Source: Aquitalea magnusonii
Lineage (GTDB): Bacteria > Pseudomonadota > Gammaproteobacteria > Burkholderiales > Chromobacteriaceae
NCBI RefSeq assembly: GCF_003202035.1
Contig: NZ_QJKC01000022.1
Span: forward strand, 1 to 50,988
Direction: 5' to 3'
Length of the DNA: 50,988 bases
The translations under genes were made by a program, and so were the position numbers. The notes under the pieces were generated by a model. That model saw nothing but the letters and a program-made list of their open reading frames with translations. It had not been told where the DNA came from and ran no database searches. Position 1 is the first letter of the stretch. The number at the start of each line of letters is the position of its first letter. Shown piece after piece: positions 8,460-22,874 of this stretch.

Positions 8460-9101
8460 ATGAGAGTGAAAACTGAAGATCGGCGTCTGGCCATCCTGGC
8501 TGCAGCCACGGAGGTATTCCGGGCACGTGGTTACAAGGCGGCATCCATGGCGGAGATCGCGGAACGCACGGGTGGCTCCAAGGCAACGCTGTACAGCTAT
8601 TTTTCTTCCAAGGACGAGCTGTTTCGCGAGGTCATGAAAACCCAGGCGGAAGACCGGATGATGGGAGCGTTTGGCAGCCTGGCCCCGGGGGCTGATCTGG
8701 CCGGCACCTTGCAGCGCTTTGGCGAGCACTATCTCGATACCATACTGAGCCGCGATCTGTTGATCATGCGTAGCATCGTGATGGGGGAAGGGCCGCGCTC
8801 CAGTATGGGCCGGATGTTTTTCGACAACGGCCCGGCCGAGGGGTGGGGGCAGTTGGCGCGCTTTCTGGAAGGTCAGATGCAGGCCGGCCAGCTGGCCAGC
8901 CGCTCGCCCTGGCGGGCGGCACTGCAACTGATCAGCTTGCTGGAGGCCGACTATGTGGAGTTTTTCATGACCGGGCTGGTGGACAAACCCGGACCGGAGC
9001 GCATTGCCGAATCAGTGGCGGCGGCGCTGGCCGTTTATCTGCATGGCTATGGCGTGGATGCGGCAGGGATGACGAGCAGCAGCAGGGAGCCGCTGTCGTG
9101 A
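8460..9101 (+). CDS. TetR/AcrR-family transcriptional repressor of the adjacent emr-type pump
   Basis: A 213-residue regulator. Residues about 10-55 form the TetR helix-turn-helix (FRARGYKAASMAEIAERTGG, SKATLYSYFSSKDELF). The C-terminal part is an all-helical ligand/dimerisation domain resembling the AcrR C-terminal family. It is divergent from the efflux operon with 86 bases between the starts, the classical arrangement for a local repressor that responds to a pump substrate. The ATG at 8460 follows GGAGGGG after a short spacing; a GTG two codons later is possible. A stem-loop lies 43 bases after the stop. Confidence 0.88.
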   Translation: MRVKTEDRRLAILAAATEVFRARGYKAASMAEIAERTGGSKATLYSYFSSKDELFREVMKTQAEDRMMGAFGSLAPGADLAGTLQRFGEHYLDTILSRDLLIMRSIVMGEGPRSSMGRMFFDNGPAEGWGQLARFLEGQMQAGQLASRSPWRAALQLISLLEADYVEFFMTGLVDKPGPERIAESVAAALAVYLHGYGVDAAGMTSSSREPLS

Positions 9102-12433: not shown

Positions 12434-13387
12434 ATGGCCGAAATCAATGCCGACGAGATCCTGCGCCGCCTGTCTGCCCGGCTGAAAATGCGCCACCTGA
12501 TCCTGCTGCTGAATATCCAGCAGCATGGCTCGCTGACGCGGGTGGCCGAGCAGATGGCCAGCAGCCAGCCGGCCATCACCAATGCCCTGTCCGAGCTGGA
12601 AGGCATGTTTGGCGGTGCGCTGTTTGACCGCTCCAGCCGCGGCATGGCCCCCACCGCGCTGGGCAAGCTGGTGCTGGCCCGCGCCCAGGCCATGCTGCAC
12701 GATCTGGACCACCTGGTGCGCGACATGGCCACCGCCGCGGCCGGCTATAGCGCCCACCTGCACGTTGGCGTCATTCCCTTTATTCCGGGGCGGCTGCTGT
12801 CGGCCGCCATCGCCCGCACCCTGCCGGAAGGCCAGGGCGGCATGACGGTGACCCTGCATGAGGGCACCAGCGACCAGCTCTTGCCACGGCTGCAGGATCA
12901 CAGCCTGGACATCGTCATCGGCCGCGCCTCGTCGGCGGTGGATCTGCAACAGCTGGAGTTCGAAGTGCTGTACCGGCAACAGCCGCGGCTGATCGCCAGC
13001 CGGCGGCTGGCGGCGCAGCTGGGACGGGTGCGGCTGGACTGGACCCGCCTGGTGGAACTGGACTGGATTCTGGGGGCGCCCCATACGCCGATGCGCGAGC
13101 AGGTGACCGATATCTTTCTGGCGGCCGGCATTGCCCCGCCAGTGCCCATTGTGGAGAGTTATTCGTCCAAGCTGATCGGCGAGATGATTGTCGCCAGCGA
13201 ACGGGCGGTGTCCATCGTGCCGGCGGATATTGCCGAAGAGCTGGTGCGCACGGCCGGCCTGTCCATCGTGCCCTATTCATTCGACTGGACGCTGCCGCCG
13301 ATTGCCATGTTTACCCGTGCCGGCGGTGCGCGGCATACCGTGGCGCTGTTCTGCGCCGCCTTGCGCGGCTTGTGTCAGGAGGGCTGA
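12434..13387 (+). CDS. LysR-family transcriptional regulator
   Basis: A 317-residue regulator. The N-terminal winged helix-turn-helix is visible around residues 18-75 (LLLNIQQHGSLTRVAEQMAS, SQPAITNALSELE, GALFDRSSRGMAPTALG). Residues about 100-305 form the two-lobed effector-binding domain (LHVGVIPFIPGRLL). It resembles the GalR/CbnR-like LysR group. The divergent position suggests that it controls the malic enzyme gene and itself, perhaps in response to a C4-dicarboxylate or aromatic metabolite; the effector cannot be read from sequence. No clear ribosome binding site precedes the ATG, and no alternative in-frame start upstream was seen. Confidence 0.85.
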   Translation: MAEINADEILRRLSARLKMRHLILLLNIQQHGSLTRVAEQMASSQPAITNALSELEGMFGGALFDRSSRGMAPTALGKLVLARAQAMLHDLDHLVRDMATAAAGYSAHLHVGVIPFIPGRLLSAAIARTLPEGQGGMTVTLHEGTSDQLLPRLQDHSLDIVIGRASSAVDLQQLEFEVLYRQQPRLIASRRLAAQLGRVRLDWTRLVELDWILGAPHTPMREQVTDIFLAAGIAPPVPIVESYSSKLIGEMIVASERAVSIVPADIAEELVRTAGLSIVPYSFDWTLPPIAMFTRAGGARHTVALFCAALRGLCQEG

Positions 13388-13410: not shown

Positions 13411-14958
13411 TCAGTCCGGCGCTGGCCCGGCTTCCAGCGGCAATGCCAGTTGCTTGGTGGTCGCCGGCCTGGCGCTGCCGCCGGCACGCGGCAGCTGCTT
13501 GCGCGAGCCATGTTTTTGCAGGACGGCCTGCTTGCCGGCGCGTACCGCCTGTTCATTGCGGCGGGCGTGCAGGCGCTGGCGGGCCTGCCGGGTGGCGCTT
13601 TCCAGCTCCACCAGTGGTTGCACCAGCGCATATTCCCCCAGCAGCCCGTGCTGGCGGCACAGATCGTCCGGCATTTTCCATGGCTGGAACAGCCAGCTGT
13701 CCGGCACCCGGCGCATGGCCGGCAGCCATTGCCGCACAAAGCGCCCCTGTGGATCGTGGTCCATGGCCTGCTTGACCGGGTTGTAGACGCGGGTGGTATT
13801 GATGCCGGTGGTGCCGGCCTGCATCTGCAGCTGGCTCCAGTGAATGCCCGGCTCGTAATCGAGAAAACAGCGCGCCAGCCATAAGCCCACCGGCCGCCAG
13901 TGCAGCCAGAGCGGATAGGCCGCCACCGAAACCAGCATGGCGCGCATGCGGAAATTCAGCCAGCCGGTGTGACGCAGCATGGCCACGCAGGCATCCACCA
14001 GCGGCCAGCCGGTTCGGCCATCCATCAGCGCCTGCAAGCGTGCGGCATCGACTTCCTCTTCGCGCAGCCCATCGTAGCCGCTGTGCATATTGCGCCATTC
14101 GATGGCGGGTTCGGACTCCAGCTTCTGCATGAAATGGCAGTGCCAGTGCAGGCGGCTGATGAAGGCTTGCAGCCCTTGGCGCTGGCGCGTGTTGTCTGCC
14201 GGTAATTGCGTCAGCCGGCGGCGGGTGCTCTGCACGATTTCACGCAGGCTGAGGCAGCCCATGGCCAGAAAGGGCGACAGCCGCGAACAGGCCGTTGGTG
14301 CGGACAGCGGCGAGGAGATACCGCCGCGGTAGTGGGCGCTGCGCGTGGCGAGAAAATCCTGCAACACGGCAATGGCGCGGCGGCGGCCGCCACGCTGGCG
14401 TTGTGGCGGGTCGAAAGGGTGGATGCCCAGCTGGGCCGCGGTGGGGGGGCGGTCGTCCGGCAGCGGGGCTGGCCAGCCCTGCATGACGGGCACGGGCAGG
14501 CAGGGGGCGCTGACCAGCTGTTCCCAGCGCGCCGCCCAGCCGTCGCGCGCGGCGAGGCGGCGGATGACGCCGTTCTGGCAGAATTCCTGCCAGGGCAGGC
14601 CATGGCTGCGGCACCAGCGGGCGACGGCCAGATCACGCTGAAAGGTGAAGTGATTGCCGGTTTCCTCATGCGCATACAGCGCGTGGAAGGGGCTGGCCTG
14701 ATACAGCTGCTCCAGCACGGCGCAGGCCTCGCCCACTTTCACCAGCAGTGTCATGCCGCGCTGCTGTAGCGATTGGCGCAGGTCGTGCAGGCATTCCAGC
14801 AAAAAGTGGTAATGCTGGCTGGACAGGTCGGGCTGCAGCCATAGCTGTGGCTCGATGATGTACAGGCACAGCAGCGGTCCCTGGGCGCTGGCGGCACACA
14901 GCGCCGCATGGTCGTGCAGGCGCAGGTCGCGCTTGAACCAGACCACACCGTAACTCAT
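13411..14958 (-). CDS. Photolyase/cryptochrome-family FAD protein with basic C-terminal tail
   Basis: A 515-residue protein. Residues about 1-130 are the antenna-binding Rossmann domain (SYGVVWFKRDLRLHDHAAL). Residues about 200-440 are the FAD-binding domain (YRGGISSPLSAPTACSRLSPF; TGWPLVDACVAMLRHTGWLN FRMR; INTTRVYNPVKQAMDHDPQG; FVRQWLP). The C-terminal 70 residues are Arg/Ala/Lys-rich and probably disordered. The W-x-W-A-A-STG region of class I CPD photolyases reads IHWSQLQMQAGTTGINTT here, so the subclass is uncertain: DNA repair or blue-light signalling are both possible. The start at 14958 follows GGGAG. It is the last gene of the photo-stress run and converges with LysR 23 bases away. 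Confidence 0.85.
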   Translation of the reverse strand: MSYGVVWFKRDLRLHDHAALCAASAQGPLLCLYIIEPQLWLQPDLSSQHYHFLLECLHDLRQSLQQRGMTLLVKVGEACAVLEQLYQASPFHALYAHEETGNHFTFQRDLAVARWCRSHGLPWQEFCQNGVIRRLAARDGWAARWEQLVSAPCLPVPVMQGWPAPLPDDRPPTAAQLGIHPFDPPQRQRGGRRRAIAVLQDFLATRSAHYRGGISSPLSAPTACSRLSPFLAMGCLSLREIVQSTRRRLTQLPADNTRQRQGLQAFISRLHWHCHFMQKLESEPAIEWRNMHSGYDGLREEEVDAARLQALMDGRTGWPLVDACVAMLRHTGWLNFRMRAMLVSVAAYPLWLHWRPVGLWLARCFLDYEPGIHWSQLQMQAGTTGINTTRVYNPVKQAMDHDPQGRFVRQWLPAMRRVPDSWLFQPWKMPDDLCRQHGLLGEYALVQPLVELESATRQARQRLHARRNEQAVRAGKQAVLQKHGSRKQLPRAGGSARPATTKQLALPLEAGPAPD

Positions 14959-14998
14959 GGCCGGGCGCTCCCGATTACCGCAGGCTGAAGCGGTCGGC

Positions 14999-15223
14999 TC
15001 AATGCCAGCCCTGCCGCCAGAGGGTGGCATCGGTCAGCGTTTGCCAGGCGATGATGCGGCTGTGCCGGCTGTATACCGCTTCCAGTTCCACCTCGCGGAT
15101 GGCTTGGGCCGGGTCTTCCGGCTCGATCAGCCGCACCACGATAAAGTGTTTTTCCTTGTTGCGCGGCTGCACGGCCGTCCACTTGCTCAGCAGCAGCTTG
15201 CGCGGGTTGAGTCGCATCGTCAT
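14999..15223 (-). CDS. TIGR02450-family small Trp-containing conserved protein
   Basis: A 74-residue protein with the conserved segment RKLLLSKWTAVQPRNKEKHF followed by a short beta-rich domain ending in a Trp/His-rich tail (TLWRQGWH). This matches what I recall of the TIGR02450 family, which is uncharacterised and often found with photolyase and stress genes. The ATG at 15223 has an AAGG about 11 bases upstream; a second ATG is two codons later. It lies between lipocalin and photolyase genes, with gaps of 22 and 40 bases. Confidence 0.75.
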   Translation of the reverse strand: MTMRLNPRKLLLSKWTAVQPRNKEKHFIVVRLIEPEDPAQAIREVELEAVYSRHSRIIAWQTLTDATLWRQGWH

Positions 15224-15245
15224 GGCTTGTTTACCTTGATTAGCC

Positions 15246-15788
15246 TTACTGGCTGGCCGTGCTTTGCTTCACCCAGATCAGGCTGGCGGTATCAAAGCCC
15301 AGGCTGGCGGCCTGACGCAGCAGCTGCTGGGTCACGGTTTGCGGCAGCTGCTTGTCGCGCGCCAGTATCCACAGATAGTCGCGGTCGTTACCGGCCACCA
15401 TGGCCCATTGATAGTCCGGGTCCAGCGCCACCACATGGTAGCCGCCGTAGAAGGGGCCGAAGAAAGACACTTTCAGGGACGCCACATGGCTGTCGCCATT
15501 GAACAGCGCGCGGCCCTGTGCCTCTTTCCAGCTGGCGCTGGCCTGGTCGTAGCCGCGGTTGACCACCTTGATGCTGCCATCGGCATTGAGCGAGTAGGTG
15601 GCGCTGACCTGGCTCAGGCCACGTTCGAAGCGGTTGTCCAGCCGGGCGATTTCATGCCACTGGCCGCTATAGCGCGTCAGCTCGAAGCCGCTTACCGGCT
15701 GGATGCCCGGTGGCGGCAGGGTGGAGCAGGCGGCCAGCAGCAGGGTGCTGGCCAGCAGCAGGATCAGGGAGAGGGAATATCGTTTCAT
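15246..15788 (-). CDS. blc: Bacterial lipocalin, outer-membrane lipoprotein (Blc)
   Basis: A 180-residue protein with a lipoprotein signal peptide (LILLLASTLLLAAC, lipobox cysteine about C21). The mature part shows the lipocalin signature GQWHEIARLDNRFERGL, the second motif VVALDPDYQWAMVAGNDRDY and the closing WILAR strand. Blc proteins bind fatty acids or lysophospholipids and are stress-induced in the envelope. In this cluster it may carry or salvage oxidised or modified membrane lipids (inference from neighbours). AAGGAAGCC precedes the ATG. Confidence 0.93.
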   Translation of the reverse strand: MKRYSLSLILLLASTLLLAACSTLPPPGIQPVSGFELTRYSGQWHEIARLDNRFERGLSQVSATYSLNADGSIKVVNRGYDQASASWKEAQGRALFNGDSHVASLKVSFFGPFYGGYHVVALDPDYQWAMVAGNDRDYLWILARDKQLPQTVTQQLLRQAASLGFDTASLIWVKQSTASQ

Positions 15789-15814
15789 GGTGTGGCTTCC
15801 TTGTGGTGTCGGGC

Positions 15815-17344
15815 TTACAGGGTGTCCAGCCGCTGGCGGATGGCATGGGCGGTCGTGGTAATGGCGGCGCTTTCCGCCGCATCCATCTGCTGCAACTGGC
15901 GGTAAACCAGCGCCAGTCTGGGATTGCTACCCAGCGTGGCGGCATTGCGCTGGAAAAAGTCCCAGTACAGGGCGTTGAACGGGCAGGCGTCATCGCCGTG
16001 GCGCTGTTCGCGCCGGTAGCGGCAGTCGCCGCAATAATTGCTCATGCGCTGCAGATAGGCGCTGCCGGAAACATAAGGCTTGCTGGCCAGCAGGCCGCCG
16101 TCGGCAAACTGGCTCATGCCCAGGGTATTGGGTAGTTCCACCCATTCGAAGGCATCGATGTAAATGCCCAGATACCATTCATGCAGGGCCTGGGGCGACA
16201 GCCCGGCCAGCAGGGCGAAATTGCCGATGACCATCAGCCGCTGGATGTGGTGGGCATAGGCATCGCGCAGCGACTGGCCGATGGCCTGGGCCAGGCAGTG
16301 CATGCCGGTGTCGCCGTTCCAGAACCAGTGCGGCAGCGGCCGCTGGTGGTCGAAGTGATTGCTGCTGGCATAGCCGGGCATGCGCGCCCAGTACACGCCG
16401 CGCACATATTCGCGCCAGCCCAGTATCTGGCGGATGAAGCCTTCCGCTGCGGCCAGCGGCACCTTGCCCTCTTGCCAGGCGGCCACGGCGGCGTCTATCA
16501 CTTCCCGCGGCGACAGCATCTTGGTGTTGAGGGCGAAGGACAGCAGGGAATGAAACAGCCGCGGCTGTGCGCTGTGCATGGCGTCCTGATAGTCGCCGAA
16601 GCAGGGCAGGCCATGCTGGATGAAATGCTGCAGCAAGGCCAGGGCCTCCTCGCGGTGCAGCGGCCAGCGCAGTTGTGCGGCACAGGGCTGACCCAGCGCC
16701 GCCACGCCGGCATCCTGCAGCATCTGCCACAGCGCGCTGTGATCGTGGCTGGGGCGTGCATCGGCCAGCGGTGCGGGGCTGCCGCGCCACGGCTTGCGAT
16801 TGTCCTGGTCGAAATTCCATTTGCCGCCGACCGGGCCGCCACGCTCATCCAGCAGCACGCCATATTGCTTGCGCATGTGGCGGTAGAAGGTTTCCATGCG
16901 CCAGCTGGCCTTGCCGGCAAACAGCTGGCTGGCGGCCAGCCGAGGGGCCAGAAAGTGTTCGCTGTCCACGGCCTGGCAAACCACGGTCTGCCGGGCTGCC
17001 CAGGCTTGCAGCTGCTGGTCCAGCCGCCACTCGTCCGGCCATTGCCAGCTGAAATGGCTGGCGGCGTAGTGCTGTAGCAGGGCATCCAGATTGGCTTCCA
17101 GCGTGCCGCGATTGGACGGATGGTCGAGTGCGACATAACGCACGCGATGGCCGGCGGCTTTCAGGCGGGCGGCGAAGTGGCGCATGGCAGCCAGCACCGC
17201 CAGCAGCTTTTGCGCATGATGGCGCACGTAGTCGGTTTCCTGGCGCAATTCCAGCAGCAGGTAAACCACATGGTCATCGACGCGGGAAAACCAGCTGTGC
17301 CGGGGATTGAGCTGGTCGCCCAGAATCAGTCGCAGCGTAGTCAT
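15815..17344 (-). CDS. Fe-S bacterial cryptochrome/(6-4) photolyase (FeS-BCP, PhrB type)
   Basis: A 509-residue protein starting LRLILGDQLNPRHSWFSRVD, characteristic of the prokaryotic (6-4) photolyase group. The four cysteines that ligate the [4Fe-4S] cluster in Agrobacterium PhrB are present at the same residue numbers as I recall them: C350 (TGMHC), C438 and C441 (NYCGDC) and C454 (DACPF). FAD-domain motifs include FIRQILGWREYVRGVYW and IGNFALLAGLSPQALHEWYL. It should repair (6-4) photoproducts with light, using FAD and a lumazine-type antenna. An 87-base gap upstream separates it from DUF2256; an internal promoter there is possible but not identified. Confidence 0.92.
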   Translation of the reverse strand: MTTLRLILGDQLNPRHSWFSRVDDHVVYLLLELRQETDYVRHHAQKLLAVLAAMRHFAARLKAAGHRVRYVALDHPSNRGTLEANLDALLQHYAASHFSWQWPDEWRLDQQLQAWAARQTVVCQAVDSEHFLAPRLAASQLFAGKASWRMETFYRHMRKQYGVLLDERGGPVGGKWNFDQDNRKPWRGSPAPLADARPSHDHSALWQMLQDAGVAALGQPCAAQLRWPLHREEALALLQHFIQHGLPCFGDYQDAMHSAQPRLFHSLLSFALNTKMLSPREVIDAAVAAWQEGKVPLAAAEGFIRQILGWREYVRGVYWARMPGYASSNHFDHQRPLPHWFWNGDTGMHCLAQAIGQSLRDAYAHHIQRLMVIGNFALLAGLSPQALHEWYLGIYIDAFEWVELPNTLGMSQFADGGLLASKPYVSGSAYLQRMSNYCGDCRYRREQRHGDDACPFNALYWDFFQRNAATLGSNPRLALVYRQLQQMDAAESAAITTTAHAIRQRLDTL

Positions 17345-17431
17345 GGACGGCTCCGCCGGGCGGGCTGCACAGCTTGTCGGGGAGTGTAAGCAAGAGCGAG
17401 TGACATGGTGGCAGGGTATGGTTTTGCTGGT

Positions 17432-17578
17432 TCAATGTTGTCGGCGGCAGCGCTCGGAGCAGAATTGCAGCTGTTCCCAGCAGCGCGCCCATTTGCGCCG
17501 CCAGCTCATCGCCCTGCCACAGCCGCGGCAGGTCTTGACTGGCAGTGCCTGCTTGTTGCCCTTGAAACCGGTTTTCAT
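17432..17578 (-). CDS. DUF2256 small cysteine-rich protein
   Basis: A 48-residue protein with a basic N-terminus (KGNKQALPVKTC) and the pattern C-x2-C ... W-x4-W-x2-C-W ... C-x3-C (CRGCGRAMSWRRKWARCWEQ then FCSERC), a probable zinc ribbon. It matches the DUF2256 family, whose function is unknown and which often accompanies photolyase genes. The ATG overlaps the stop of the NTF2-like gene as ATGA, so translation is coupled. Confidence 0.85.
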   Translation of the reverse strand: MKTGFKGNKQALPVKTCRGCGRAMSWRRKWARCWEQLQFCSERCRRQH

Positions 17579-18081
17579 GCCGGGCGGTCCTCGTCGCGTA
17601 CCGACAGCAGCCGGCGCAGCAGCCGCAGTGGTGCGCCGATCAGCGGCAGCTTGTGCAGCAGTTCTTCGGCCGAGTCCCAGTAGTCGCGGTGCAGGATCAG
17701 CAGGCCATCCTCGTTGAAACGCAGATGGCTGGCACCGTGCAGGCAGTAATCCTTGCCGCGCAGGCGGAAATGAAAGTCCCAGCTGAGGAAAGCCTGCTGG
17801 CCATCCAGCAATTGCTCCAGCACCACGAAGCGCGGCTGCTCCAGCTTGCGGAACATGTGCTGGAAAATCAGCCTGACGCCGTCGCGGCTGTATACCGTAT
17901 TGAAGGGGTCCTTGAAGCTGACCGTGGCGGCGTAATAGTGCGGCAGCTGTTCCAGGCTGTGCGGACTGAGCTGGCTGTACCACCCCACCAGTGCCGATAG
18001 CTGCGCTCTCAGTGCCGCGCCAGCCGGCGCAGCAGCGGCAGCCGCAGGCGATAGGGCAGCAGTCTGAGCAGTTTTATCCAT
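17575..18081 (-). CDS. NTF2/SnoaL-like protein of the photo-stress cluster
   Basis: A 168-residue protein; residues about 25-140 form an NTF2-like cone fold (LVGWYSQLSPHSLEQLPHYY, ATVSFKDPFNTVYSRDGVRL, FLSWDFHFRLRGKDYCLHGA SH). Such proteins can be small enzymes or ligand carriers; here no activity can be assigned. The ATG at 18081, with AGGTTCACCAC before it, gives a 73-base overlap with the SDR gene upstream, and the first 22 residues are Ala-rich. A later start is possible but no better ribosome binding site was found. The stop overlaps DUF2256. Confidence 0.75.
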   Translation of the reverse strand: MDKTAQTAALSPAAAAAAPAGAALRAQLSALVGWYSQLSPHSLEQLPHYYAATVSFKDPFNTVYSRDGVRLIFQHMFRKLEQPRFVVLEQLLDGQQAFLSWDFHFRLRGKDYCLHGASHLRFNEDGLLILHRDYWDSAEELLHKLPLIGAPLRLLRRLLSVRDEDRPA

Positions 18082-18794
18082 GTGGTGAACCTGACAGGAA
18101 AGTGGATTTCAAAGCGGCCGCGCTCCAGCCCGCGCACGATGTGCGCGGCTGCCTCGCTGGTGTTGAGCAGGGCCGGCATGGTGAAGTCGTTGCGGGCGGT
18201 GAGCCGGGTGGCGACAAAGCCGGGGTTGATCAGGTAAACGGCGATGCCATGCTGGCGCAATTCCGCGTGTAATAACTCGGCCAGATTGATCAGCGCCGCC
18301 TTGCCCGGCCCGTAGACACAGGCACCGGGCAAGCCGACATAGCCGGCCACGCTGGCCACCAGTGCGATGCCGCCGCCCTGGCGGGCCATCAGCGCCGGCA
18401 GAATGGTTTCCAGCCCGAAATAAACGCCGGCCAGATTGGTGGCCAGGGTCTGGCTGACCGTCGCGGCCCGGATGTCCCAGCAGTGCTCCGGGCGATAGTC
18501 CGCCGCGCAGAACACCACCAGATCGGGCAGGGCCTGGCGGGCTGCCAGCTCGGCCCAGGCTTGCTGCCAGGCCGCCGGCTGGCTGACATCCAGCGGCAGG
18601 ACGATGGCGGCGGCATGGGCGGCAGCCACCAGCTGCAGGGCGACCTGGTTGCGTGCCGACAGGATCACCTGTGCGCCTTGTTGCAGCAGCTGGCTGGCCA
18701 GCGCTGCGCCGATGCCGCTGGAGGCACCGATAATCCACACCCGGCGCTGGTGCCAGCTGGCGATGCGGGGGTTGGGCGGGGGTAGCAGCATCAT
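18009..18794 (-). CDS. Short-chain dehydrogenase/reductase
   Basis: A 261-residue classical SDR. The cofactor motif GASSGIG is at residues 23-29, and the catalytic triad is complete: S148 (VASVAGY), Y161 and K165 (YGPGK). The last 30 residues are basic and hydrophobic (TTWIKLLRLLPYRLRLPLLRR), which suggests membrane association and fits a lipid substrate. Its substrate is unknown. In related photo-oxidative stress clusters SDRs sit beside the same lipid-modifying genes (inference). AGGAG precedes the tandem ATGs. Confidence 0.88.
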   Translation of the reverse strand: MMLLPPPNPRIASWHQRRVWIIGASSGIGAALASQLLQQGAQVILSARNQVALQLVAAAHAAAIVLPLDVSQPAAWQQAWAELAARQALPDLVVFCAADYRPEHCWDIRAATVSQTLATNLAGVYFGLETILPALMARQGGGIALVASVAGYVGLPGACVYGPGKAALINLAELLHAELRQHGIAVYLINPGFVATRLTARNDFTMPALLNTSEAAAHIVRGLERGRFEIHFPVRFTTWIKLLRLLPYRLRLPLLRRLARH

Positions 18795-18837
18795 GGCTTG
18801 CTCCTGGTGACAACGTGTAGCCGCGGCTGCCGGTCAT

Positions 18838-20046
18838 TCATGCCGGGCGGTCTTGCAACAGAAACTGGCTGACGCCGATGCGGCCTTCGTCGAAACCGGC
18901 CTCGCAATAACACAGGTAGAGCCGCCACAGGCGGATGAAGGCTTCGTCAAAGCCCTGTTGGCGCACGCTTTCCAGCGCCCCCTCGAAGGACTGGCGCCAG
19001 CGGCGCAGGGTTTCCGCATAGTCCGGGCCGAAGTCCAGCCGCTGGCTGGTGTGCAGGCCGGCGGCGCTGGCGGTCTGGCTGAAGCGGCTGGGGCTGGGCA
19101 GCATGCCGCCCGGGAAAATGAATTGCTGGATGAAGTCGCTCTTGGCGCGGTAGCGTTCGAAATAGGCGTCGGCAATGGTGATGCTCTGGATCAGTGCCTG
19201 CCCACCCGGGCGCAGCAAGCGGCGCACCGTGCGGAAATATTGCGGCCAGTAGGCTTCGCCCACCGCTTCGAACATCTCGATGGACACCACCGCGTCGTAC
19301 TGGCCGTCCAGGTCGCGGTAGTCGCGCAATTCCAGCTGGGCCAGCGGCTGGCCGGCCAGCCGCTGGCGCGCCAGTTCAAGTTGGGCCGGTGAAATGGTGA
19401 TGCCATGCACCGCGATGCCGGCACGCGTGGCGTGTTCGGCAAACCCGCCCCAGCCACAGCCGATTTCCAGTACCCGCATGCCCGGCTGCAAGCCCAGCGT
19501 GTCGCAGATGCGCTGGTACTTGGCCTGTTGTGCCTGTTGCAGCGACTGCGCGTAGTTGCCGTTGAACCAGGCGCTGGAGTAGGTCCAGGACGGGTCCAGC
19601 CACAGCCGGTAAAAGTCATTGCCCAGATCATAGTGGGCGTGGATGTTGCGCCGGCTGCCACGGCGGCTATTGCGCCGCAGCAGGTGCTTCAGCCGATACC
19701 ACCATCGCGCCGGCAGGCTGCCGGACAGCGCCGGCGGCACGGCGTGTTCGTTGCGCAGGGCCAGTCGCAGCAGGGCGGTCAGCTCCGGGCTGTCCAGCAG
19801 CCCGTCGCGATAGGCTTCGGCAAAGCCGATGTCGCCGGCCGTCAGCAGCTTGCGGCAGCCGGCCCAGTCGTGGATATGCAGTTCGGCATGTTCGCTGTGC
19901 TGCGGCTGGCCGAACCATAGCGCATGGCCGGCCGGTGTCAGCAAGCGCAAGCCCCCGCTCTGCAACTGTTGCAGTCGCGACAGCAGCAGGCGGGCGCTGG
20001 GCGGCAGTGCGGGCGGCAGTTTGTCCAGGGTATGGCTGAGGTTCAT
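18838..20046 (-). CDS. Cyclopropane-fatty-acid-synthase-like SAM methyltransferase
   Basis: A 402-residue protein of the Cfa/UfaA family. The SAM-binding motif is VLEIGCGWGGFAEHATRAG (about 192-210), followed by ITISPAQLELARQRL and SIEMFEAVGEAYWPQY (about 255-270). Two sites differ from canonical E. coli Cfa: the YSCAYW cysteine region reads YSSAWF (S157), and the LLHTIG bicarbonate-site histidine appears as IQSITI (Q287). This points to an Ufa-type enzyme that methylates unsaturated phospholipid acyl chains rather than closing a cyclopropane ring (inference). The ATG overlaps the DUF1365 stop (ATGA), and I reject the 29-residue upstream extension on that ground. Confidence 0.88.
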   Translation of the reverse strand: MNLSHTLDKLPPALPPSARLLLSRLQQLQSGGLRLLTPAGHALWFGQPQHSEHAELHIHDWAGCRKLLTAGDIGFAEAYRDGLLDSPELTALLRLALRNEHAVPPALSGSLPARWWYRLKHLLRRNSRRGSRRNIHAHYDLGNDFYRLWLDPSWTYSSAWFNGNYAQSLQQAQQAKYQRICDTLGLQPGMRVLEIGCGWGGFAEHATRAGIAVHGITISPAQLELARQRLAGQPLAQLELRDYRDLDGQYDAVVSIEMFEAVGEAYWPQYFRTVRRLLRPGGQALIQSITIADAYFERYRAKSDFIQQFIFPGGMLPSPSRFSQTASAAGLHTSQRLDFGPDYAETLRRWRQSFEGALESVRQQGFDEAFIRLWRLYLCYCEAGFDEGRIGVSQFLLQDRPA

Positions 20047-20837
20047 GCTTGCGGCTCCTGTCCATGGCTGAGCGAGTGAGAAGGGGCGAGCGGTTTGCGA
20101 TAGACGGGCAGTTTTTTCCGCCACAGCTGCCATGCCTGCCAGTGAATGCGCCAGATGACGCCCAGGGTCAGCAGTGGCTGGCGCAGCACGGCCCTGGCCA
20201 GGGCCGGCACCGTCAGCGGCTGCAGCTGGCCGGAAATGCTGGTATTGATCAGTTCGCCGACATCATCGTGGTAGTCGATTCGCATCAGCATGCGCCCGGC
20301 GCATTCGGCCAGCCGGAAACGGTAGTGTCCGGCCACCTGGCAGAACGGCGACACATGCAGCTGTTTGCGGCAGCGCAGGGTGCTGCCATTGCGGATGGGG
20401 CTGCCATCCGGATTGGCCAGCAGATAGCCATGGCGCTCGCCAAAGGTATTGTTTACCTCGGCCAGCAGGGCGATCAGCTCGCCGGCGGCATTGTGGCAAT
20501 ACCAGAAGCTGACCGGGTTGAAGGCGTAGCCGAACAGGCGCGGAAAGCATTGCAGCCATACCTCGCCATCGCAGGGCAGGCCGGCTGCCGCCAGGTGCTG
20601 GCGTATCCATGGCAATAGCGGGCTGCCATCGCAGGCACCATGATCACGGCGCTTGAGCGTTAGCGGACGCCAGCGATCCACGCCCAGCCACATTCCCAGC
20701 CAGCCCTTGCCGATGGACTCCAGTGCGGACAGCCTGAAGCGCAGCGCAAACACCGGATAGCGGAAGCGATGGTGGACCGGGCGCAGCCGCTGGTGGATGA
20801 CGCTGCCGGTCAGCAGGTAGGCAGCCAGCCCGTTCAC
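20043..20837 (-). CDS. DUF1365 family protein
   Basis: A 264-residue protein with the DUF1365 hallmarks: HHRFRYPVFALRF near the start, RRDHG (about 63-67), CFPRLFGYAFNPVSFWYC (about 97-114) and AEVNNTFGERHGYLL (about 126-140). The family is uncharacterised and almost always sits between an amine-oxidase-like flavoprotein and a Cfa-like methyltransferase, as here. It starts with GTG at 20837, overlapping the upstream stop as GTGA. A role in lipid modification or storage is inferred only from neighbours. Confidence 0.88.
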   Translation of the reverse strand: MNGLAAYLLTGSVIHQRLRPVHHRFRYPVFALRFRLSALESIGKGWLGMWLGVDRWRPLTLKRRDHGACDGSPLLPWIRQHLAAAGLPCDGEVWLQCFPRLFGYAFNPVSFWYCHNAAGELIALLAEVNNTFGERHGYLLANPDGSPIRNGSTLRCRKQLHVSPFCQVAGHYRFRLAECAGRMLMRIDYHDDVGELINTSISGQLQPLTVPALARAVLRQPLLTLGVIWRIHWQAWQLWRKKLPVYRKPLAPSHSLSHGQEPQA

Positions 20838-22120
20838 AGCCTGGCCCAGTGCGGTAGCGGGGCGAAATCGGCAGCCACGCGCAGCGCGGATTTCAGCCCG
20901 TCTTCATGAAAGCCGTAACCGGTCCAGGCACCGGCAAACCAGCAATGGCGCCGGCCCTGGATGGCCGGCAGCCGGCGCTGCGCCTCGATGGCTGCCGCAT
21001 CCAGCAGCGGATGCTCGTACAGGAAGCGTGCCAGTTCCTGTGAGGCTTCCGGCTGCTGCAGCGGATTGAGCGTCACCATCAGCGGGGTGCGGATGGGCAG
21101 CGGCTGCAATTTGTTCAGCAGGTAACTGACGCAGACGGCGCGCTGGCCGCTGCCGTTGCCATCGGACAGGAAGTTCCAGGCCGACCACACCTGGCGTCGG
21201 CGCGGCAGCAGGCTGGTATCGGTATGCAGCACGGCGATATTGCTCTGGTACTGCACCGCGCCCAGTATGGCCCGCTCTTCTGCTGTGGCATCCGCCAGCA
21301 GGCGCAGGGTTTGCGGTGCATGGGTGGCGAAAATCACGCTGTCGAAGTGCTCCGCGCCGTGGCGGCTGCTGACCGTGACACCGTGTTCGTGGCGCTCAAC
21401 CTGGCTCACCGGGCTGGACAGGCGCACATCGTCCAGGCTGGCCAGCATTTTCTGTACATACTGGCGTGCGCCCCCCGGCACGGTAAACCAGCGCGGCCGG
21501 TGGCGGATCTGCAGCAAGCCGTGATTCATGCAAAAGCGCAGAAAGGTTTCGGCCGGGAAGGCCAGGATCTGGCTGGCCGGGCTGGACCAGATGGCCGCAG
21601 CCATCGGCACCAGGTAGTGATCGCGAAAACGCTTGCCGTAGCTGCCCTGTTCCAGCAATTCGCCCAGTGTCAGCCCCTGCCCGGCGGCCAGCTGCAGATT
21701 GGCAGTGGCTGCCGCATTAAAGCGCAGGATATCGCCCAGCATGCCGTAAAACGACGGGGACAGCAGCTTGCTGCGCTGCGCAAACACGCTGGACAGGCTG
21801 CTGCCGGCCCACTCATCCCGCCCCTGGTCTACCGAGACGCTGAACGACATGTCGCTGCCGCTGCAGGGCAGCTCAAGCTGCTGAAACAGCGCGATCAGAT
21901 TGGGATAGGTGGCCTCGTTGAACACCAGAAAACCGGTATCCACGGCGCAGCGCTGGCCTTCCAGTTCGACGTCCACGGTATTGGTGTGACCGCCGGCATA
22001 ATCCCCTGCCTCGAACAGCGTCACATCATGGTGGCCTGCGGTCAGCCATGCGCTGGCAAGGCCGGAAATGCCGGCACCGATGATGGCGATGCGCTGGCGC
22101 TTGGGGCTGGCTTGGTTCAC
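20834..22120 (-). CDS. FAD-dependent amine-oxidase-like protein of the lipid/photo-stress operon
   Basis: A 428-residue flavoprotein. Near the N-terminus it carries RIAIIGAGISGLASAWL, followed by LFEAGDYAGGHTNTVDVE and VDTGFLVFNEATYPNLIALF, typical of the amine oxidase/protoporphyrinogen oxidase-like group that pairs with DUF1365. The C-terminal GAWTGYGFHEDGLKSAL closes the FAD site. The best start is GTG at 22120, because GGGAGATCAG lies directly before it; the upstream ATG extension lacks a ribosome binding site. It is the first gene of the ten-gene run. The substrate is probably an unsaturated lipid, not an amine (inference from context). Confidence 0.87.
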   Translation of the reverse strand: MNQASPKRQRIAIIGAGISGLASAWLTAGHHDVTLFEAGDYAGGHTNTVDVELEGQRCAVDTGFLVFNEATYPNLIALFQQLELPCSGSDMSFSVSVDQGRDEWAGSSLSSVFAQRSKLLSPSFYGMLGDILRFNAAATANLQLAAGQGLTLGELLEQGSYGKRFRDHYLVPMAAAIWSSPASQILAFPAETFLRFCMNHGLLQIRHRPRWFTVPGGARQYVQKMLASLDDVRLSSPVSQVERHEHGVTVSSRHGAEHFDSVIFATHAPQTLRLLADATAEERAILGAVQYQSNIAVLHTDTSLLPRRRQVWSAWNFLSDGNGSGQRAVCVSYLLNKLQPLPIRTPLMVTLNPLQQPEASQELARFLYEHPLLDAAAIEAQRRLPAIQGRRHCWFAGAWTGYGFHEDGLKSALRVAADFAPLPHWARL

Positions 22121-22131
22121 CTGATCTCCCG

Positions 22132-22157
22132 TTGACGGTTCGGATTGACGGTTCGGA
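22132..22157. repeat. Perfect tandem 13-bp duplication upstream of the photo-stress operon
   Basis: TTGACGGTTCGGA is repeated twice without spacer, 11 bases before the predicted GTG start of the operon. It may be a duplicated regulator half-site or simple replication slippage. The two copies are identical. Confidence 0.6.
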
Positions 22158-22171
22158 ATGAAGAAAACAGC

Positions 22172-22200
22172 TTGGCACACCGTGCCGTAGTGCTTATATT
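22172..22200 (+). promoter_or_regulatory. Predicted sigma-70 promoter of the TetR gene
   Basis: TTGGCA (22172-22177) and TATATT (22195-22200) are separated by 17 bases, with transcription toward the TetR gene at 22254. The -10 overlaps a palindrome at 22194-22210. Confidence 0.5.
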
Positions 22201-22210
22201 CAGGATATAA
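22194..22210. promoter_or_regulatory. Palindrome over the TetR -10 (possible autoregulatory operator)
   Basis: TTATAT and ATATAA flank the five bases TCAGG, giving a 17-base dyad on top of the predicted -10 element. It lies between the TetR gene and the divergent ten-gene operon, so one bound dimer could affect both directions. The assignment is inference. Confidence 0.45.
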
Positions 22211-22253
22211 CTGCTTTGGAAAAAAAGCTACCAATTAGTAAAAGGTTGTACTC

Positions 22254-22874
22254 ATGAGTATTTTCAGCAAGCTCAGCTTCAAGGATCAAGCCTTCAAGCT
22301 GCGCGAACAGGCAGTGCTGGATGCAACGACCAAGTTGCTGGCCAGCAAGGGTTTCGACCTGATGACCATGGACGATGTCGCCGGCGAGGCGGGCATCTCC
22401 AAGCCCAGCCTGTACAAGCATTTCAAATCCAAGGAAGAGCTGGCCACCGAGGTGATGATCCGGCTGCTGGATGGTGCGCTGGCTTTTCTCGAGGCACAGG
22501 ATGGCGCGCTGAGCGCCAGGGCAAGACTGGCGGGATTGCTGGAGTGGGCCTTGCGGGTGAGGCTGGAGGGGGGCCTGCCTTTCCTGCCGTCGTCCAGCCC
22601 GCAGGTGAGGGAAATGCTGACCAAAAGCCTGCGCTATGTCAGCCGCGTGTACAAATTGCACAAACTGCTGGCCGGCATTGTCGATGCGGCCAAGCAGGCC
22701 GGGGAGCTGCGGGCGGATCTGCCCACCGACGTGCTGCTGTATGCCTATTACTCGCGCACCTGCGACCCGGCGGTCGATTACATGCAGCTATACGGACGCT
22801 ACAGTACCGAGCAGATCGTGGCGCACATGCTGGCCATGACTTTCGACGGCATGGCCGGTTCCGGCCAGCACTGA
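22254..22874 (+). CDS. TetR-family regulator divergent from the photo-stress/lipid operon
   Basis: A 206-residue regulator. The DNA-binding domain spans residues about 15-62 (LLASKGFDLMTMDDVAGEAG, ISKPSLYKHFKSKEELATEV). The C-terminal ligand domain is helical and contains RYVSRVYKLHKLLAGIVDAA and a YYSRTCDPAVDYMQLYGRY segment. It is separated by 133 bases from the divergent operon. Similar clusters in other bacteria are governed by LitR-type MerR proteins or by sigma-E/ChrR, neither of which is visible here, so this TetR is the best candidate controller. A moderate AAAGG site precedes the ATG. Confidence 0.86.
   Translation: MSIFSKLSFKDQAFKLREQAVLDATTKLLASKGFDLMTMDDVAGEAGISKPSLYKHFKSKEELATEVMIRLLDGALAFLEAQDGALSARARLAGLLEWALRVRLEGGLPFLPSSSPQVREMLTKSLRYVSRVYKLHKLLAGIVDAAKQAGELRADLPTDVLLYAYYSRTCDPAVDYMQLYGRYSTEQIVAHMLAMTFDGMAGSGQH

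Follow-up and report, generated by a model that had tools for sequence, protein, structure and literature searches.

Furan fatty acid synthesis in Rhodobacter sphaeroides involves the methyltransferase UfaM, the desaturase UfaD, which has a predicted NAD/FAD-binding domain and is related to phytoene dehydrogenases, and UfaO, a DUF1365 protein that uses O2 for furan ring formation; in Rhodopseudomonas palustris the corresponding genes follow one another as RPA2571 (UfaD), RPA2570 (UfaO) and RPA2569 (UfaM) (PMC7380195). A homologous light-inducible cluster in Pseudomonas is repressed by class II LitR, with TGTACA as a word of its sites; PmlR2 represses the light-inducible promoter of the P. mendocina cluster in the dark, and phrB and ufaM of that species are induced 25-33 fold by light (PMC9758184). 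Singlet oxygen induces a DUF1365 gene and two CFA genes in Chlamydomonas (PMC4067076), and blue light induces photolyase/cryptochrome genes and one cyclopropane-synthase-like gene in Vibrio cholerae (PMC5241685). What we credit to these reports, here and below, holds for the available parts of each. Here we analyse contig NZ_QJKC01000022.1 of Aquitalea magnusonii (50,988 nucleotides; 'the window', the whole of one contig of a 4.4 Mb genome), which carries a ten-gene unit with homologues of all three Ufa enzymes beside a divergent gene for a TetR-family regulator. We consider it probable that this unit is an operon for furan fatty acids (Ufa), of the kind tied to photo-oxidative stress, under a local, self-regulating TetR repressor that is released by a membrane-damage signal.

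The unit runs on the minus strand from 22120 down to 13411, with tetR divergent from it on the plus strand (22254-22874). Gene calls and Pfam matches bear out the first-pass annotation of this DNA, made from the sequence alone, in which ten same-strand genes and a divergent TetR had been described. The parts are as follows.

20834 to 22120, minus strand: UfaD-like FAD oxidoreductase, first gene of the unit (Pfam Amino_oxidase/NAD_binding_8)
20043 to 20837, minus strand: UfaO-like DUF1365 protein (PF07103, E 3.7e-77)
18838 to 20046, minus strand: UfaM-like methyltransferase of the CMAS/Cfa family (PF02353)
18009 to 18794, minus strand: short-chain dehydrogenase/reductase (SDR) oxidoreductase (PF00106, adh_short)
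17575 to 18081, minus strand: SnoaL_2 / NTF2-like protein (PF12680)
17432 to 17578, minus strand: DUF2256 protein, 48 amino acids, Cys-rich (PF10013)
15815 to 17344, minus strand: predicted FeS-BCP type (6-4) photolyase (DPRP; PF04244)
15246 to 15788, minus strand: lipocalin, Blc-like lipoprotein (Lipocalin_2, PF08212; PRK10477 at 231.6 bits, under its cut-off of 267)
14999 to 15223, minus strand: DUF2389 protein, Trp-rich (PF09493), which we take to be the TIGR02450 protein of the first-pass annotation
13411 to 14958, minus strand: photolyase/cryptochrome-family protein with a divergent active site (PF00875 DNA_photolyase and PF03441 FAD_binding_7)
22254 to 22874, plus strand: TetR-family regulator, divergent from the unit (PF00440, TetR_N)

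A frame check makes GTG at 22120 the most likely start of the FAD oxidoreductase gene. Three of the nine junctions (FAD/DUF1365, DUF1365/Cfa and SnoaL/DUF2256) are 4-base stop/start overlaps, which corrects the 'several' ATGA/GTGA overlaps remarked on earlier; the SDR and SnoaL genes overlap by 73 bp, and at the remaining five junctions the genes are 22-87 bp apart. Beyond the 3' end of the unit lies a convergent LysR gene, whose end is at 13387.

The UfaD, UfaO (DUF1365) and UfaM homologues, recognized by Pfam match and gene order and compared by description, are all present and contiguous. The lipid genes are consistent with the making of furan fatty acids, which agrees with the earlier suggestion of methylated or furan-type fatty acid formation. 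The same annotation had listed DUF1365 as functionless and allowed for an unknown lipid pathway in the unit. That listing is out of date, DUF1365 being the domain of UfaO (PMC7380195), and because the domain has a known function no unknown lipid pathway is needed; we have rejected that candidate. A search of solved structures gave no relative of the DUF1365 protein.

The regulator is where this locus departs from some of its relatives. The bacterial family was sampled with 61 genomes, and 40 regions of 20 kb, some of which end at a contig end, were fetched from 39 genomes besides that of the window (G025 twice), all picked for holding DUF1365. The domain is present in 44/61 genomes. A TetR orthologue (at least 70% identity) occurs in 25 of them, all among the 26 genomes with a strong DUF1365 match (at least 245 bits); G023 is the sole strong-DUF1365 genome that lacks one. 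The other 18 genomes (matches of about 179-206 bits; genera g3, g4 and g10) are without TetR and have a LitR-type MerR gene within 6 kb of DUF1365 in 18/18 cases, nearness being taken from coordinates alone, with no region fetched, in G049, G056, G057 and G060. Orthologues of the LitR-type query, which combines MerR_1 and B12-binding domains, are found in 20/61 family genomes (E<=1e-8), and the search at that threshold found none in the genome of the window. Only G035 has both regulators, its LitR copy lying on a different contig.

The lipid unit itself is shared by both groups. FAD and DUF1365 genes stand next to each other in 40/40 regions (truncated in L086), SDR is present in 40/40, and Cfa and SnoaL_2 each in 39/40, so that neighbourhood comparison answers positively the question, raised with the first annotation, of whether gene order is conserved in relatives. 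Sorted by regulator, 25 regions have a divergent TetR beside the FAD gene (a degraded one in L074), LitR is found in 14, where it sits at the far end beside the SnoaL gene, one (L071) has neither and none has both. ChrR (TIGR02451) is above cut-off in 0/61 family genomes; 16 of them have weak matches under it, and the genome of the window has no match. The proposal that a TetR protein replaces the usual regulators of such genes is supported in this form: TetR occupies the place that in other genera of the family belongs to a LitR-type MerR. Read from the sequences, this amounts to an exchange of TetR for LitR at a conserved lipid unit within one family, and this regulator would be the new part.

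Some loci depart from the simple pattern. In G025 one contig (C41, L074) has the whole unit next to a TetR gene that is degraded (44% identity, internal stop), and another (C1, L086) an intact TetR gene beside truncated FAD and DUF1365 genes. TetR, a LitR-type MerR and BLUF genes lie side by side at the lipid unit of Rugamonas fusca (L146), perhaps a snapshot of regulator exchange.

A profile scan of 84,980 genomes gave 218 TetR relatives, and the counts that follow come from the best 80 of these. FAD and DUF1365 genes lie beside TetR in 78 of the 80, and in 75 there is also a Cfa gene within 6 kb. Seventeen of the 80 loci are the same DNA as the fetched family regions; among the 63 further loci, 61 have TetR divergent beside FAD and DUF1365. 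Among named relatives Aquitalea palustris (99%) comes closest by TetR protein, followed by A. aquatica (98%); the named genera include Chromobacterium, Cupriavidus, Herbaspirillum, Duganella and Janthinobacterium, along with some metagenome bins; we take these genera to belong chiefly to Neisseriales and Burkholderiales. Two loci are exceptions: the sequence of L129 starts 206 bp ahead of TetR, and the 10 kb of L141 contain no such genes.

Alignment of the intergenic region between tetR and the FAD gene (26 loci) revealed a conserved tetR -35/-10 pair and, ahead of the start codon of tetR, a box, CTACYRATYAGTA. The corresponding features of the window are these.

22172 to 22200, plus strand: sigma-70-like tetR promoter, TTGGCA-N17-TATATT, 10/12 matches
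22194 to 22210, no strand: near-palindrome TTATATTCAGGATATAA at the tetR -10 element, kept in most family loci
22229 to 22240, no strand: putative operator box O1, TACCAATTAGTA, 13 bp before tetR
22249 to 22260, no strand: putative operator box O2, TACTCATGAGTA, a perfect palindrome over the tetR start codon
22912 to 22943, plus strand: intrinsic-terminator-like hairpin after tetR, from nothing but a consensus scan (6 sites, with 6.4 in shuffles)

The promoter scan found 3 sites in the region against 1.9 in shuffles, and support for the tetR promoter comes from its conservation. O1 and O2 lie 20 bp apart in the window, about two helical turns. A strict form of the box, TACYRATYRGTA, was written from 26 rows (25 regions and the window) before the further 63 loci were seen. 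It scores 11 or 12 of 12 in 73/80 TetR loci, as compared with 0.25% of 1600 shuffled regions, and in 56/63 of the further loci; at the O1 place itself the score is 11-12 in 37/63, 10 in 21, 9 in 3 and 7 in 2. The relaxed form, TACN6GTA, at 12-15 bp before the start is found in 25/25 derivation loci and 61/63 others, and O2 over the start codon in 24/25 and 55/63, respectively; these counts for O2 and relaxed O1 are descriptive, because both were noticed in the output when the strict box was scored in the 80 loci. O1 is missing from L130, where a perfect box lies at a distance of 25 bp, and from L141, where there is no unit.

The boxes follow the regulators. In the 300 bp upstream of the FAD gene the TetR box is present in 25/25 TetR regions, 0/14 LitR regions and 0/1 regulator-less region. 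A LitR-type box, TTTGTAC...ACAA, shows the reverse distribution (0/25, 14/14 and 0/1) and is missing from the window; its pattern was written after inspection of 6 of the 14 LitR regions. Many of these LitR-type boxes contain TGTACA, the single word that was compared; the Pseudomonas sites have it twice, as TGTACA-N12-TGTACA (PMC9758184). A sigma-E promoter was considered and dropped: there is no ChrR above cut-off, and by eye no conserved sigma-E motif in the intergenic alignment. Each of 10 genomes sampled from the genus has the exact 12-mer at tetR. Its 19 matches elsewhere do not in sum exceed the 17 of the reversed-pattern control, and evidence for a wider TetR regulon in the genus was likewise rejected. 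Among these extra matches three loci with one 12-mer were inspected: L191 and L192 are the same place in two genomes, in what looks by eye like coding sequence, and L183 is another place.

The TetR protein has 206 amino acids and an almost wholly helical AlphaFold2 model (pLDDT 88.8, pTM 0.83). An N-terminal helix-turn-helix (HTH; PF00440), this helical model and TetR-family folds at the top of a structure search place it in the family. The nearest folds include MexL, RutR, Bacillus FadR, KstR2 and PvrA, mostly with a TM score of about 0.6. Bacillus FadR, KstR2 and PvrA are fatty-acid regulators with about 15-24% identity to the protein and TM of about 0.6, and in the fold listing FadR carries stearoyl-CoA and PvrA coenzyme A. 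The ligand is not readable from the fold, because RutR and others score alike. One residue stands out: C170, in an RTCDP / RTCDPAV motif, is Cys in 105/105 rows and in 88/88 distinct TetR sequences, and it would be a candidate for a sensing role. We suggest tentatively, as a possibility that falls short of an even chance, that TetR is a dedicated sensor of photo-oxidised membrane lipid and, either through C170 or through a pocket for a methyl-branched, furan or peroxidised acyl chain, reports on the state of the lipids which the operon itself produces. Elsewhere on the contig, a second TetR-like HTH region (8481-8714) has weak similarity (36%) to this TetR.

The downstream genes are less constant. 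DUF2256 is present in 22 of the 25 family TetR regions, lipocalin in 23, DUF2389 in 20, DPRP in 19 and the terminal photolyase in 7; an extra photolyase-like gene, absent from the window, is found in 8. Photolyase, DUF2256, lipocalin and DUF2389 genes are found in 0/14 of the 20 kb LitR regions, so that DNA repair is not a constant part, and the photolyases look like an add-on to the lipid unit. The view that the unit couples DNA repair to lipid formation thus holds for lipid formation and fails for repair as a constant partner. L071, which has neither regulator, has lipocalin. DPRP was seen in 13/80 TetR loci, including L153, L165, L173 and L175 outside the family; the 6-kb flanks often end earlier.

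The best solved match of the DPRP protein is 7ykn/8a1h (E 2.5e-151), with PhrB (4dja) also found, and it has Cys at 350, 438, 441 and 454; we take C350, C438, C441 and C454 to be the cluster cysteines of PhrB. As far as its sequence tells, it belongs to the FeS-BCP (6-4) photolyases. In contrast to E. coli photolyase, the terminal photolyase-family protein lacks R226, E274, W306, N378 and W382 of Escherichia coli Phr and has M345 changed and W277 kept, and so does not show the residues of a class I CPD (cyclobutane pyrimidine dimer) photolyase. It has R at E274, H at N378 and E, W and L at W306-W359-W382; we assume that E274 and N378 belong to the active site of E. coli Phr and the three tryptophans to its Trp chain. 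In the window and 7 relatives the residues at R226, E274, W277, W359, N378 and W382 are S, R, W, W, H and L in 8/8, and the protein may be cryptochrome-like rather than a repair enzyme. The extra photolyase-like gene of relatives keeps all six of these Phr residues in 8/8, with W306 and M345 changed. Two gaps in the unit mark genes that relatives have. A DUF3833 lipoprotein gene lies in 36/40 regions at the place of 18795-18837, and the additional photolyase-like gene in 8/40 at that of 17345-17431; neither gene is present in the window or in its nearest kin, L078, L081 and L084.

Gene content and order, the swap of regulators, the conserved boxes and the invariant cysteine can all be read from the DNA. 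From these we propose the following scheme for a TetR-controlled Ufa operon. The UfaM-like enzyme would methylate the cis-vaccenyl chain of phospholipids, the UfaD-like enzyme would desaturate the methylated chain, and UfaO (DUF1365) would use O2 to close the furan ring. Downstream, this lineage would have gained a module for DNA repair and the envelope, made up of the FeS-BCP photolyase, DUF2256, DUF2389, lipocalin and a further photolyase-like protein. A pair of TetR dimers would bind the two TACN6GTA boxes about 20 bp apart, O2 being over the tetR start codon, and would block both promoters, acting by repression rather than activation. A signal from photo-oxidative membrane damage would release TetR; we would guess at an acyl chain, oxidised or furan, or at C170 itself becoming oxidised. 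By analogy with the Pseudomonas and Chlamydomonas genes, and in view of the BLUF genes next to five TetR units (three of them also with FolE), the unit may be induced by light or singlet oxygen.

Were the Cfa-like enzyme to make cyclopropane fatty acids, with the FAD and DUF1365 proteins acting on other lipids, no furan would be formed. The enzyme belongs to the Pfam CMAS family and its best named matches are cyclopropane synthases, but all four Cfa-type NCBIfam models listed fall far under their cut-off (best 259.5 of 400 bits), and relative to three solved cyclopropane synthases it has Ser158 for Cys (YSCA) and Gln287 for His (LLHTI/ALIHG). It thereby lacks the Cys139 and His266 of E. coli Cfa that we take, in numbering and role, to be bicarbonate ligands. 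Among 96 distinct homologues (of 112 rows) Gln is found in 96/96 and Ser or Ala in 95/96, with Glu and Tyr kept in 96/96. Add to this that the UfaD-UfaO-UfaM order matches that of R. palustris, and a cyclopropane product appears improbable; we read the enzyme as UfaM-like and not as a cyclopropane synthase. The available part of PMC12089945 gives no UfaM residue signature. A different proposal concerns the signal: the regulator could answer blue light through a partner photoreceptor (BLUF or cryptochrome-like), much as LOV proteins release class II LitR (PMC9758184). The genome of the window has 3 BLUF genes, and BLUF genes adjoin the unit in 5 TetR loci (L079, L146, L162, L164 and L171) of the 40 + 80 examined. 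At L079 (G035), L164 and L171 FolE (GTP cyclohydrolase I) accompanies BLUF beside the TetR-type unit, reminiscent of folE in the light regulon of Pseudomonas. Nevertheless, the BLUF genes of this genome are all on other contigs, and BLUF does not track the regulator: it is found in 24/25 TetR, 18/20 LitR and 12/17 DUF1365-less genomes (54/61 in the family; G035 belongs to both the TetR and the LitR group, G033 to both the LitR and the DUF1365-less group), and G045 has TetR without BLUF. We therefore regard a partner photoreceptor as doubtful, and we have discarded BLUF as a tell-tale partner in the window, it being common whatever the regulator and absent from this contig.

It might also be supposed that TetR controls mainly itself, the unit being constitutive or under a global regulator and the neighbourhood being kept by inheritance. 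In the intergenic region O1 and O2 are indeed on the tetR side, with O2 over the start codon, and several further observations tell against an operon under TetR control. The sigma-70 scan found no leftward promoter for the FAD gene. L071 (G023) keeps the lipid unit with neither regulator and neither box; G025 has an intact DUF1365 gene beside the degraded TetR and its intact TetR beside truncated genes; and the TetR of L141, a Castellaniella metagenome-assembled genome, is 63% identical and keeps the Cys, with no unit and no box. The O2 and relaxed O1 counts, as said, were noticed and not predicted. BLUF offers no proof of a link to light, because 54/61 family genomes have it whatever the regulator. 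In the order, DUF1365 is present in 91/200 genomes, only 16/91 with TetR within 5 kb; TetR places of at least 290 bits are adjacent in 12/12 cases, and only 4/26 in the weaker group (<290 bits) are near DUF1365. In a sample of the class, DUF1365 is present in 54/185 genomes and TetR is adjacent only in that of the window; the TetR profile (E<=1e-40) matches just this genome and G167, where it is not adjacent, and LitR-like matches (E<=1e-20) occur in 10/185, near DUF1365 in 4 genomes. With so few DUF1365 genomes having an adjacent TetR, the switch belongs to one lineage, and most DUF1365 units outside it must be run by something else. Finally, the loci are related by descent, and the counts are therefore not of independent events. 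Against mere self-control, however, the pairing of TetR with its boxes excludes that of LitR with its own at the unit of this family, which idle inheritance of a neighbour would not readily produce, and of the 80 best among 218 TetR relatives 78 stand next to FAD and DUF1365 genes. We judge self-control as the main role of TetR to be quite unlikely.

Among the open-access papers listed for TetR, furan lipids, DUF1365 and photolyase we found no report of this regulator, most subscription papers lying outside that coverage. If TetR does sense photo-oxidised lipid, it would be a third, chemically different input to the singlet-oxygen/furan-lipid response besides B12/LOV-LitR and sigma-E/ChrR, and one that would serve many Betaproteobacteria. 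In many of these TetR is kept with the furan-lipid genes, together with a readable candidate operator and a single invariant Cys. Under the proposed repression, loss of tetR would be a way to force furan-lipid production, and the protein could serve as bait for whatever molecule induces the unit. The exchange of TetR for LitR along with the promoter boxes in one family would also be a compact case of regulatory rewiring of a stress operon.

Set beside the described systems, the unit of the window shares its three enzyme kinds and the identical UfaD-UfaO-UfaM order with R. palustris RPA2571-2569. The same three kinds are found in R. sphaeroides RSP1091-1087 and RSP2144, where RSP1087 (245 amino acids) and RSP1088 (186) have sizes that would suit the SDR and the DUF3833 protein of this unit and its relatives. 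Unlike the Ufa genes of Rhodopseudomonas and Rhodobacter, it has a divergent TetR and a photolyase module; and whereas loss of the ChrR anti-sigma factor raises furan fatty acid in R. sphaeroides, the genome studied here has no ChrR above cut-off. The response of V. cholerae, with MerR (VCA0056) and ChrR, uses other regulators, and its genes are spread over several loci. A further parallel is the class II LitR (PplR/PmlR) cluster of P. putida and P. mendocina, whose light-inducible phrB, SDR, FAD oxidoreductase and ufaM genes all have homologues in the window, and a LitR-type version of the lipid unit occurs within its own family (14/40 regions). That cluster uses a MerR repressor, however, where the window has instead a TetR gene and TACN6GTA boxes and no LitR-type box.

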